A stretch of DNA of 64,000 nucleotides from Caldimonas tepidiphila. Its GTDB lineage: Bacteria; Pseudomonadota; Gammaproteobacteria; Burkholderiales; Burkholderiaceae_C. The notes beneath the pieces are model-generated. The model worked only from the letters and a program-made list of their open reading frames with translations, was not told the DNA's origin and searched no databases. Shown in pieces: positions 12,515 through 29,956 of the stretch (positions are counted from its first letter, which is position 1; each line of letters starts with the position of its first letter). The translations under genes were made by a program, and so were the position numbers. The stretch covers positions 62,001 through 126,000 of the forward strand of contig NZ_QXMG01000002.1 of assembly GCF_003569765.1 (NCBI RefSeq). Reading direction: 5' to 3'.

Positions 12515-15500
12515 GTGCGAGCTGACCTGAACCAAGCCGACCTCACGTATTGGCAGTCGATCTTCCCGCTTCCCTGGCCGGTATTGGAACTGCCGCGAGA
12601 CCTTTCGCGGACCGCGGGGCAGGCGCCGGCGATGCAGCGTCAGGAACTGCGCCTCGAGTCCGCCCTCGCCGCCGCGCTGCGCGAGTATTCGCAGCAATGC
12701 GGCAGCGATCTTTTCACCACGCTCTGCGCGGCGTATGCCGCCACGCTCGCGCGGCTCTCGGGCGCGGGCGAGGTGGTGATCGCCGTTCCCGCCGCCGATC
12801 TGCCGGCCGCAGCCGCCGGCGGATCGGCGGCGGGCGAAGCGGCGCTGCTGCCGCTGCGCCTCGCGGTCGACCTCGACGCGGCCCCGGCCGCGCTGCTCGC
12901 GTCCGCCGCACGCACGCTGCACGAGGCCGCCGCGCACCGGGGCTGCGACATCGCCGCGATCCGCGAGGCCGTGCTCGGCCCGCAGGGCGGAGCACCCTTG
13001 GCGCATGTCGCCTTCGGGATGTCGCCCCGGCCCGCGGAGGACGGCCGCGAGGCCTTCGAGCTCGCGCTGCAGGCGCTGCCCGAGGACGAGGGGATCCGCC
13101 TGGTGCTGGACCATGACGCCGCGATGTTCGGGCCGGAGAGCGCACGTCGCTGGCTGCTGCTCTACCGCCAGCTGCTCGAGGGCCTCGCATCCGCTGCGGA
13201 CCAGCCCGTCGCCGCGCTGCTCGCGCCGGTCGACGAGGAGCGGCAGATGCTCGCGCGCTTCAACGCGAGCGGCGGGGACTTCGACCGGCTCGCGCGCCTC
13301 GAGGCGATCTTCGACGCTCAGTCCGAACGCACCCCGGACGCGACCGCGCTGGTGGCGGGCGGCGAGCGTCTCAGCTACCGCGAGCTGCAGCAGCGCGCCT
13401 TCGGCGTCGCCGCCGAGCTGCACCGCCGCGGCGTGCAGCCGGGCGACCTCGTCGGCCTGAGCTGCGGCCGCAACGCGCGCATGCTCGTCGGCCTCTACGG
13501 CATCCTGAAGGCCGGCGCCGGCTACGTGCCCCTCGACCCCGCCTTCCCGGCCGAGCGGCTCGACTTCATGACCGAGGACGCGGGACTCGAGCTGGTGCTG
13601 TCGGACCGCTCGGTCGACGGCGGCTGGGCGCCGCAGGGCGCCGAGCGGCTGCTGCTCGACGAGCTGGCGCCCGCCGACGGCTTCGAGCCCGATGCCGCCG
13701 CGCACAGCGAGCTGCCGGCCTACGTGATCTACACCTCGGGCTCCACCGGGAAACCGAAGGGCGTGCGCGTGCCGCACCGCAGCGTCGTCAACTTCCTGCA
13801 GAGCGTGGGCGCGGAGCCGGGCCTGGCGCCCGCCGACCGGCTGCTGGCGGTGACGACGCTGTCCTTCGACATCGCGGTGCTCGAGCTGATGCTGCCGCTG
13901 ACGCGCGGCGCGCAGGTCGTGATCGCGCCGCGCGAGGACACGAACAACGGCGCCGCGCTCGCGCGCCTGATCGCCGAGCACGGCATCGGCGTGATGCAGG
14001 CGACGCCGAGCACCTGGTACCTGCTGCTGGAGGCCGGCTGGCAGGCGCCAGCGGGCTTCCGCGCGCTGTGCGGCGGCGAGCCGCTGCCGCCGGCGCTGGC
14101 CGAGCGGCTGCTCGCGCAGGGCGTCGAGCTGTGGAACATGTACGGCCCGACCGAGACCACGGTCTGGTCGAGCGCGCACCGCGTCGACTCGCCCACCGCG
14201 CCGATCCCGATCGGCCGGCCGCTGCTGAACACGCAGTTCCACGTGCTCGACGCCGCGATGCGGCCGCTGCCGCTCGGCGCGGTGGGCGAGCTGTGGATCG
14301 GCGGCGACGGCGTCACGCTCGGCTACCTGAACCGGCCCGAGCTCACGGAGAGCCGCTTCGTCGCCGACCCGTTCTCGCAGGCCCCCGGCGCCCTGCTCTA
14401 CCGCACCGGCGACCTCGGCCGCTGGCGCGCCGACGGGCGGCTGGAGTGCCTCGGCCGCATCGACAACCAGATCAAGCTGCGCGGCTACCGCATCGAGCTC
14501 GGCGAGATCGAGTTCCAGCTCGCGCAGCACCCCGAGGTGCGCGCCGCGGTGACGATGGTGCGCGAGGACCGCCCGGGCGACGTGCGCCTGGTCGCCTACC
14601 TGCAGCCGCGCGACGCGATGCCCGCGGTCGGCGCGCTGCGCGAGCACCTCGCGGCGAGCCTGCCGCCCTACATGATCCCGCAACACTTCGTGCCGCTGGC
14701 CGCGATCCCGCTGCTGCCCAACGGCAAGATCGACCGCAAGTCGCTGCCGGTGCCGGGCAGCGCGCGGCCCGAGCTCGCCACGCCCTACCAGTCGCCGGTC
14801 GGCGAGCTGGAGAGCGCCTGCTGCGAGATCTTCGCCCGCGTGCTCGGGCTCGACCGGGTCGGGCGCCACGACAACTTCTTCGAGCTCGGCGGCACCTCGC
14901 TGAGTGCGATGCAGGTGGTCGAGGCGCTGTCCGAGGTGGCGGGCCGGCGCGTGAGCGCCCCCACCATCTTCGCCCACCCGGCGCCCGCGGCGCTGGTCGC
15001 GGCGCTCTCCGGCGACGCGGCCGCCCCGGCACGCCGCCGCCGCGCGCGCGCCACGTCCGAGGACGAGCACGCGATCGCCGTGATCGGCATGGCCGGGCGC
15101 TTCCCCGGCGCCTCGACCGTCGAGGGCTTCTGGGACAACCTGATCGCCGGCCGCGAGACCGTCACGCGCTTCAGCCTCGACACGCTCGACCCGGCGGTGC
15201 CCGAGGCGCTGCGCGCCGACCCGAACTACGTCTGGGCGCGCGGCGTGATCGAGGACGTCGAGATGTTCGACGCGTCCTTCTTCGGCATCCCGGCGCGCGA
15301 GGCCGAGGCGATGGACCCGCAGCACCGCGTCGTGCTCGAGCTCGCCTGGGAGTGCCTGGAGCGCGCCGGCTACGCGCCCGACCGCGTCGACTGCCCGGTC
15401 GGCGTGTTCGCCGGCGCCTACACGCCGTCCTACCTGCAGAACAGCGTGCTGACGCATCCCGAGGTCGTCGAGCGCCTGGGCGAGTTCCAGGTGATGATCT

Positions 15501-29281: not shown

Positions 29282-29956
29282 ATGACCGAACTCGTCCCGC
29301 CCCCCGCCCCGATCCCGCTGCGCCTGTGGTGCGTCCGCCTCGACCGCGAGCCGCCGGCCGCCGCGCTGCAGAACCTGTCGCACGAGGAGCTCGAACGCGC
29401 CGCGCGCTTCGTGTTCGAGCGCGACCGGCGCCGCCACCTCGCCGCGCACTGCGCGCTGCGCGAGATCCTGGCGCGCGCCACCGGCCGCGAGGCGGCGTGG
29501 CTGCGCTTCGAGAGCGGGCCGCACGGCAAGCCGGCGCTGGCGCCCGCCGCGAGCCGCTGCAGCTTCAACATGAGTCACAGCGAGGACCTCGCGCTGATCG
29601 CGGTCGCGCCCCGCGGCGAGCTCGGCGTCGACGTGGAAGTGCTGCGCGAGGTGCCCGACGCGCTGCCGCTCGCCGAGCGCCACTTCACCGCGCGCGAGCG
29701 GCAGGAACTGCTCCGGGCGCCAGCGGGAGCGGCGCGCCACCTCGCCTTCCTGCGGGGCTGGACGCGCAAGGAGGCCTGCCTGAAGGCGCTGGGCACCGGC
29801 CTGAGCCTGGAGGCGGCCGGCTTCGAGACCGGGCTCGCGCCCGAGGCCCGCCGGGTCCGCATCCGCGACCTCGACGGCCGGCCGGTCGAGGTGCACGTGC
29901 AGTCCCTCGGCGATGTCCAGGGCGCGGTCGGCGCGCTCGCCTGCGTCGTCACATAG
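29282..29956 (+). CDS. Sfp-type 4'-phosphopantetheinyl transferase
   Basis: 224 residues. It transfers phosphopantetheine from CoA to the Ser of carrier domains. Motifs: RCSFNMSHSEDLALIAV, GVDVEVLREV (the Mg-binding GxDxE) and WTRKEACLKALG (the WxxKEA motif). It is complete and looks active. The gene is 155 bp after the glycosyltransferase, on the same strand. Its natural clients are the four carrier domains of the upstream synthase. Start ATG at 29282; no alternative start in frame fits. Confidence 0.94.
   Translation: MTELVPPPAPIPLRLWCVRLDREPPAAALQNLSHEELERAARFVFERDRRRHLAAHCALREILARATGREAAWLRFESGPHGKPALAPAASRCSFNMSHSEDLALIAVAPRGELGVDVEVLREVPDALPLAERHFTARERQELLRAPAGAARHLAFLRGWTRKEACLKALGTGLSLEAAGFETGLAPEARRVRIRDLDGRPVEVHVQSLGDVQGAVGALACVVT

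Follow-up and report, generated by a model that had tools for sequence, protein, structure and literature searches.

A hybrid non-ribosomal peptide-polyketide synthase in an exosortase-A-less exopolysaccharide locus of Caldimonas tepidiphila as a candidate source of acyl groups for the polymer

Results

The window analysed here is a 64,000-nucleotide stretch of the Caldimonas tepidiphila genome (contig NZ_QXMG01000002.1, positions 62,001 to 126,000), in which a large hybrid non-ribosomal peptide synthetase-polyketide synthase (NRPS-PKS) lies within an exopolysaccharide (EPS) locus. Pfam and NCBIfam searches of the open reading frames (ORFs) agreed with the arrangement drawn by a sequence-only reading of the same DNA: a 4,545-residue synthase, two alpha/beta-fold proteins, a glycosyltransferase and a phosphopantetheinyl transferase (PPTase) lie between UDP-N-acetylhexosaminuronic acid (UDP-HexNAcA) genes, to the left and divergent, and, to the right, an EPS locus that includes Wzx- and Wzy-like genes. 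The operon, with its two hydrolases named Hyd1 and Hyd2, comprises:

12515..26152, plus strand: hybrid NRPS-PKS synthase, a single intact ORF of 4545 aa with a GTG start and its stop at 26152
26152..26967, plus strand: Hyd2, alpha/beta-hydrolase fold with GLGLG and no Ser/Cys nucleophile, its start overlapping the synthase stop
26978..27964, plus strand: Hyd1, alpha/beta-hydrolase fold with a Cys elbow, GFCSG, and invariant D141, D259 and H260
28002..29126, plus strand: GT4 glycosyltransferase
~29300..29956, plus strand: PPTase, closest to HetI in NCBIfam but below cut-off, exact start not fixed

A GGAGA sits just 5′ of the synthase GTG at 12515, with another in-frame GTG at 12278, and a codon-position GC of 0.77/0.52/0.97 supports the plus-strand frame as a real gene. 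An antisense ORF of 5173 aa, itself left out of the Pfam scan, was ruled out as a gene by codon-position GC and by the Pfam domains on the plus strand. Pfam placed two AMP-binding, three condensation (C), four PP-binding, a ketosynthase (KS), an acyltransferase (AT) and a class-III aminotransferase (AMT) domain on the protein, and comparison with relatives together with motif reading gave the order of the repeated copies. With adenylation domains written A, carriers T and the acyl carrier protein ACP, this order is half-C-A-T/KS-AT-ACP-AMT/C-A-T/C-dead A-T, the last A being dead by prediction. The sequence-only reading had the hybrid NRPS-PKS nature right and overlooked the aminotransferase (18347-19624).

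12527..13264, plus strand: C0, N-terminal, only the C-terminal half of a condensation domain, without the HHxxxDG motif
13277..14749, plus strand: A1, starter adenylation, pocket letters DILQLGMVWK
14783..15010, plus strand: T1 carrier, Ser present
15056..16324, plus strand: ketosynthase, TACS, EAHGT and KSNVGH present, 77% identity to the KS of genome G005
16622..17614, plus strand: acyltransferase, GHSVG/HAFH motifs
17717..17959, plus strand: ACP, Ser present
18347..19624, plus strand: class-III AMT, degenerate, Arg codon at 19169, 7-residue deletion
19667..21034, plus strand: C2 condensation, SHLICDG
21098..22630, plus strand: A2 adenylation, DILQLGMVWK, 78% identity to Caldimonas mangrovi
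22676..22900, plus strand: T2 carrier, by motif reading
22928..24274, plus strand: C3 condensation, HHIVWDG
24287..25774, plus strand: A3x, adenylation-like but lacking the core motifs, dead by prediction, with similar stretches in C. mangrovi, G005, L048 and L058
25817..26050, plus strand: T3 terminal carrier, by motif reading

Here and below, G and L numbers are our handles for genomes and loci. Active-site motifs were kept in the KS, the AT, all four carriers, C2 and C3, and Pfam found no thioesterase domain in the synthase. The YTSGSTG core motif occurred in only two copies in the whole protein, the third adenylation domain having none, and A3x also lacked core motifs in C. mangrovi and G005. 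We take the GHSVG/HAFH acyltransferase to be of the malonyl type and the pocket DILQLGMVWK, shared by A1 and A2, to be glycine-like. A1 matched amino-acid adenylation domains in a comparison without a fatty acyl-AMP ligase model.

The closest AMT of known structure was that of MycA in mycosubtilin synthase (PDB 6kfm, 301 bits), whose catalytic pyridoxal phosphate (PLP) lysine in YGKIIGGG aligns with an arginine in the window. This position held lysine in 91 of 91 rows of relatives, drawn from 11 loci of the family and the best 80 named loci, with at least two records present twice (L050/G241 and L067/G033). In addition, seven residues of a conserved loop were deleted from the window AMT, other near-invariant positions were altered, and its terminal branch on the domain tree reached 0.39 vs 0.06 for C. 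mangrovi, while the corresponding window and C. mangrovi branches were far less uneven for C2 (0.40/0.28), A2 (0.20/0.14) and C3 (0.41/0.36). Because of the arginine at the PLP lysine, the loop deletion and the long branch, with other domains less uneven, the AMT in this genome has very probably lost its activity and come under relaxed constraint, the remaining gene being maintained. A sequencing error was ruled out by the several altered conserved motifs, the in-frame deletion and the long branch.

The synthase is bordered by an EPS locus of the XrtA/PEP-CTERM type, as defined by five NCBIfam curated cut-offs passed by genes at 43938-52821. The neighbouring genes, including those of the UDP-HexNAcA pair, are:

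9642..10655, minus strand: TviC-like UDP-GlcNAcA 4-epimerase, below cut-off, start from the profile match
10676..11956, minus strand: TviB-like UDP-GlcNAc 6-dehydrogenase, nucleotide sugar dehydrogenase TIGR03026 over cut-off
30396..30998, plus strand: EpsC/CysE-like serine acetyltransferase, below cut-off
35123..36418, minus strand: Wzy-like polymerase, Wzy_C
36431..37522, minus strand: polysaccharide deacetylase, a possible source of acceptor amine
40037..41209, minus strand: EpsE-like GT4 glycosyltransferase, below cut-off
42399..43904, minus strand: Wzx-like flippase, best match HfsF, below cut-off
43938..46214, minus strand: XrtA-system ATPase and UDP-GlcNAc 2-epimerase domain in one ORF of 758 aa, TIGR03015 over cut-off
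46224..47666, minus strand: XrtA-system outer-membrane protein, TIGR03016 over cut-off
48867..50495, minus strand: XrtA-system chain-length determinant, TIGR03007 over cut-off
50714..51367, minus strand: XrtA-system export protein, TIGR03027 over cut-off
51418..52821, minus strand: priming glycosyltransferase (EpsB_2), TIGR03013 over cut-off

This neighbourhood is shared by two further genomes of the window's genus, G129 and G290, and by C. mangrovi, where 19 of 22 window queries matched on the synthase contig, the GT4 gene only generically (28%), and where no match was found among these queries for the acetyltransferase, an AI-2E transporter or a Nudix gene. For a 466-aa protein without a Pfam or NCBIfam match (31109-32509, plus strand), proteins of 54-57% identity adjoin the operon of the synthase in C. 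mangrovi, G129 and G290, and the remaining loci of that neighbourhood comparison gave no match.

To place the synthase among its relatives, a query with the AMT region was run and matched at E<=1e-60 in 16 of 299 genomes of the family (own included), spread over 9 of 141 genera. Surroundings of 40-80 kb were fetched for 11 of the other 15. All 11 loci had the order A, KS, AT, ACP, AMT, C, A, C, T in common; the carriers that follow the starter and the second A, like the A of the last module, were variable or sometimes undetected. In all five type-2 synthases inspected (G032, G244, G016, G215 and G240; loci L032-L037 and L040-L043), two proteins take the place of one, the AMT protein stopping at the junction directly behind the AMT and the C domain lying in another frame. 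The starter pocket read DVQ[FY][VI]AHV in 23 of 33 loci and DALWxGGTFK in 5, was of other types in the window, G005 and G240, and was uncovered in 2; the pocket of the second A domain began with DILQ in 29 of the 33. We presume that the three codes are Pro-like, Val-like and Gly-like, respectively. The starter A domain of C. mangrovi gave a weak match to DltA in the PDB, from which no substrate could be assigned.

A scan of named genomes extended the range, the best 80 loci coming from Caldimonas, Aquabacterium, Hydrogenophaga, Xanthomonadales (Aquimonas, Silanimonas, Luteimonas, Rhodanobacter and Dokdonella), Bacteroidota, cyanobacteria and others. A Hyd1 or Hyd2 match flanked 20 of the 28 loci that are proteobacterial by record title and none of the 52 others, absence meaning that BLAST with the copies of the window gave no match at 1e-5 in the 10-kb flanks. 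Among L069-L125, many Bacteroidota and some cyanobacteria carried KS-AT-ACP-AMT hybrids without Hyd1/Hyd2 matches, often with a PPTase-like match near. A further synthase locus, L105, lies in a metagenome-assembled genome titled Bordetella parapertussis, a doubtful organism name. A link to the glycine-containing sheaths of Sphaerotilus and Leptothrix, raised by the sequence-only reading, found no support: neither genus was among the best 80 named loci, and the accessible part of PMC11087309 is silent on sheath glycine.

The synthase gene itself is, on its sequence affinities, a chimera. Its KS-AT piece clusters with G005 at a support of 1.0 (36 of 37 genomes, G016 left out), and its AMT-C2 piece clusters with C. 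mangrovi at 0.90. The latter tree holds 23 of 37 genomes, the 14 left out being all type-2 or more distant and including G005, so that it cannot itself place the window relative to G005; that placement rests on AMT identity, 68% to C. mangrovi vs 45% to G005. The downstream parts were likewise nearest to C. mangrovi (A2 78%, C3 60%, A3x 44%, Hyd2 66% and Hyd1 65% identity). KS-AT is thus allied with another genus and the AMT onward with Caldimonas, a difference in affinity that puts the junction around the ACP-AMT border.

We then compared the positions of synthase and EPS genes in 38 synthase genomes, made up of the 16 of the family and 22 named ones, Xanthomonadales included. The 22 came from the 28 proteobacterial loci after omission of L050 and L067 (identical to G241 and G033), the short contigs L059, L063 and L066, and the doubtful L105. 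TIGR03007 was over cut-off in 34 of the 38 and within 45 kb of the synthase in 22, which leaves chance negligible under a simple binomial; the expectation that homologous synthases would lie near EPS genes was borne out, and the converse, that they never do, fails. By group, 12 of the 16 family genomes had the gene (9 within 45 kb, one at 86 kb, one at 668 kb and one on another contig), as did all 22 named genomes (13 within 40 kb, 9 on another contig). The synthase-EPS link recurs in two orders, Burkholderiales and Xanthomonadales.

The EPS loci concerned have a recognisable make-up. ATPase and 2-epimerase share one frame in the window. Both also gave a match in four other synthase loci (C. 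mangrovi, G005, G032 and G244), each of which has them in one frame, unlike G162, the only standard locus compared. With open-frame length as a proxy for this fusion, an over-cut-off ATPase lay in a frame of at least 660 aa in 12 of 12 synthase genomes having the ATPase vs 13 of 93 others; two of those 13 also have XrtA (G199 and G288). The synthases sit in a recognisable, mostly exosortase-A-less EPS subtype, which also exists without a synthase.

In the C. tepidiphila genome (99.69% complete, 178 contigs) neither the acyl-CoA ligase TIGR03098 nor the PLP decarboxylase TIGR03099 was over cut-off, and no XrtA (TIGR03109) passed, the best match scoring 164 vs 208 bits. This 164-bit exosortase-like protein (L001, G000:C16:43228-43989) lies on a contig other than that of the EPS locus and probably belongs to another exosortase class. 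Of the 299 family genomes, 78 had the ligase over cut-off, none of them among the 16 with a synthase; none of the 22 named ones had it over cut-off either, though 13 had sub-cut-off ligase matches. XrtA also passed its cut-off in 78 of the 299, 71 of these being ligase genomes, and in no synthase genome (0 of 16, 0 of 22), with weaker exosortase matches in 8 of the 22. The decarboxylase, counted in the 16 family synthase genomes, was over cut-off in none of them but in all 10 of the ligase genomes tested.

Among the 104 family genomes with TIGR03007, 12 had the synthase, 74 the ligase and none both (Fisher p 5e-8), and XrtA was present in 0 of the 12 vs 75 of the 92 others (p 3e-8). The 75 XrtA-positive genomes split into 70 with the ligase and none with the synthase, and the 29 XrtA-less ones into 12 with the synthase, 4 with the ligase and 13 with neither. 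One contrast falls within a genus, g92, where G091 has the synthase and G267 the ligase. Taken as a comparison of gene content, this mutual exclusion speaks for the synthase having functionally replaced the ligase/decarboxylase set.

Both kinds of locus have related hydrolases. The best family of Hyd2 was "hydrolase 2, exosortase A system-associated" (TIGR03101; 83.4 vs a cut-off of 202.75 bits) and that of Hyd1 "hydrolase 1, exosortase A system-associated" (TIGR03100; 66.6 vs 168.45 bits), so the sequence-only reading, which had both exosortase-A hydrolases kept, was right that the pair is present, but its members are only distant relatives, far below the curated cut-offs. A related pair lay within about 4 kb of the ligase in four of five ligase genomes fetched, the fifth contig being 8.5 kb. 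Hyd2 and Hyd1 were present in 10 of the 11 family synthase loci fetched, about 10 kb apart in G240 and upstream in G091, and a PPTase in 8 of the 11; the window PPTase passes the Pfam ACPS gathering score (54.5 vs 25 bits). The Hyd1 elbow read Gly-x-Cys-Ser/Asp-Gly/Ala in 32 of 32 sequences, four of these from ligase loci, and C118, D141, D259 and H260 were invariant over 12 aligned sequences. The nucleophile position of Hyd2 held Arg in 28 and Gly in 5 of 33 rows, being Arg in standard loci and Arg or Gly in synthase loci. AlphaFold models of the two hydrolases, built on 11-12 sequences, had a mean predicted local distance difference test (pLDDT) score of 83 and 89 and showed alpha/beta-hydrolase folds, whose generic esterase neighbours identify no reaction. 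Acyl transfer from a carrier would be a fitting task for a Cys enzyme paired with a protein that has no nucleophile.

Discussion

We propose that an aminoacyl-ketide peptide from the synthase is attached covalently to the EPS, replacing the ligase/decarboxylase route, a model that leads the alternatives and that we hold at about even probability. The operon would be the acyl-making arm of an XrtA-type, exosortase-A-less EPS locus. The PPTase would arm the carriers; A1 would load an amino acid, glycine in the window and proline or valine by the codes of relatives; KS-AT-ACP would add one malonyl unit, whose beta-ketone the AMT of relatives would convert into a beta-amine; C2-A2-T2 would add glycine; and C3-A3x-T3 would keep the chain on the last carrier, without a working A domain of its own. 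Given no thioesterase domain, Hyd1 with its Cys nucleophile and the nucleophile-less Hyd2 would take the chain and deliver it to the EPS repeat unit, at an amine that the deacetylase could provide. The same work, here assigned to a megasynthase, may in standard XrtA loci fall to the ligase, the PLP decarboxylase and the related Hyd1/Hyd2. As the AMT looks dead, the beta-ketone should stay in the product of the window, which makes the Gly-malonyl-Gly of the sequence-only reading plausible here; it would not carry over to relatives, whose starters would differ and whose ketide would be aminated. The predicted ketide unit is 4-amino-3-oxobutanoyl in C. tepidiphila and, in C. mangrovi, a Pro-derived, beta-aminated one.

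The model can be widened to the group: widespread exosortase-A-less XrtA-type loci of Burkholderiales and Xanthomonadales would make peptidyl-polysaccharides, with interchangeable NRPS-PKSs building aminoacyl-ketide-glycyl groups, Hyd1/Hyd2 transferring them and synthase recombination altering surface chemistry. We hold this wider form slightly more tentatively, at a shade under even.

Known systems share parts of this scheme. The window has five EPS genes in common with the XrtA/PEP-CTERM locus (TIGR03013, 03007, 03027, 03015 and 03016, accompanied there by TIGR03098-03101 and XrtA TIGR03109), and the Hyd2-Hyd1 pairs of the two are related, Cys occupying the elbow of Hyd1 in both; it differs in having a megasynthase and PPTase, with XrtA, ligase and decarboxylase not over cut-off in the genome, and in having the ATPase in one frame with the 2-epimerase. 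The order KS-AT-ACP-AMT-C is that of MycA in mycosubtilin/iturin-type synthases and of the window synthase, which differs by a probable amino-acid-type A starter in place of a fatty acyl-AMP ligase, by its apparently dead AMT and by its EPS context. In butirosin biosynthesis, BtrI, BtrJ and BtrK build an aminoacyl group on a carrier and move it to an amino sugar, with a ligase and a PLP decarboxylase like standard XrtA loci and no megasynthase, a likeness of idea. The fatty-acid-like RkpA of the Sinorhizobium K-antigen and the single adenylation/carrier pair of Dlt D-alanylation also exemplify carrier-bound acyl synthesis for a surface polymer, as proposed here, the comparison being confined to the weak PDB match of the C. 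mangrovi A domain to DltA.

The strongest alternative, which we nevertheless consider unlikely, is that the product is a free small molecule (a signal, metallophore or lipopeptide-like compound), Hyd1/Hyd2 a discrete thioesterase pair and the EPS vicinity a matter of shared biofilm regulation. It draws on the nearest AMT structure, which belongs to the free lipopeptide mycosubtilin, on the curacin thioesterase 3qit at rank 22 among the fold neighbours of Hyd1, and on the genomes in which linkage to TIGR03007 is unshown, yet hydrolases adjoin the synthase in several (G241, G033, L049, L053 and L054). However, none of the five genes found in the 12.5-30 kb stretch encodes a transporter or receptor, the synthase and the set of ligase, decarboxylase and XrtA exclude each other, and C. 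mangrovi, G129 and G290 keep the EPS neighbourhood. A lipid-linked or capping glycopeptide, carried on an undecaprenyl-linked repeat or as a terminal cap for polymerisation or export and not on every repeat, is improbable: the GT4 gene within the synthase operon (28002-29126) and the Wzx- and Wzy-like genes of the locus would fit it, but this GT4 has no close counterpart in the relatives searched, only BLAST pieces of 26-40% identity and not at the same operon position. Least probable is a decaying relic without product, to which the degenerate AMT (arginine for lysine, a deletion and a long branch) and the missing core motifs of A3x would point, against an intact 13.6-kb frame, kept motifs in the KS, the AT, four carriers, C2 and C3, a kept A1/A2 core motif, C2, A2 and C3 branch lengths of the same order as in C. 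mangrovi, and the same lack of A3x core motifs in C. mangrovi and G005.

Several observations weigh against attachment to the EPS as the function of the synthase. Attachment of the product to the polysaccharide is a prediction from gene content. Linkage to TIGR03007 is unshown in 16 of the 38 genomes: 10 have the gene on another contig, two have it far off (G091 at 86 kb, G033 at 668 kb) and 4 lack it. The 13 XrtA-less family genomes that have TIGR03007 with neither synthase nor ligase mean that a locus of this type can do without the synthase. The genomes are related and the counts ignore phylogeny, so the Fisher values overstate independence. The dead AMT and A3x could be decay in this genome, though the C2, A2 and C3 branches are far less uneven. 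The sequence-only reading had put the megasynthase in the place of the ligase, and this accords with the exclusion (ligase over cut-off in 0 of 38, decarboxylase in 0 of 16); it is weakened by a ligase fragment at a contig end in G304 (552 bits over 362 of 517 positions), which if whole would probably pass, and by sub-cut-off ligase relatives (404-477 bits) 8-20 kb from the synthase in 5 of the 22 named genomes. These five are G303, G313, G314, G317 and G318 (L051, L062, L064, L077 and L078), and the relatives are possibly enzymes that load the carrier in trans.

To our knowledge, the role of the ligase/decarboxylase/hydrolase set in exosortase-A loci is unexplained. A search of open-licence titles and abstracts found no description of an NRPS-PKS synthase in exosortase-type EPS loci, nor of megasynthase decoration of a polysaccharide. 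In the accessible part of Haft 2006 (PMC1569441), the words "ligase", "hydrolase", "decarboxylase", "carrier protein" and "peptide synthetase" have 0 occurrences; sections of an Aquincola floc paper give context for PEP-CTERM/EPS loci (PMC9850573).

An assembly-line synthase in the place of this set, beside relatives of its hydrolase pair, puts these loci in a new light. The domain order of an NRPS-PKS predicts its product, and therefore the role of the standard set becomes a readable question and the product can be sought on the polymer. Taken together, the loci suggest that some bacteria furnish their slime polymers with made-to-order peptide groups. If true, specialised metabolism would be joined to biofilm polymers, and genome miners would gain a rule for orphan NRPS-PKS clusters with this architecture.

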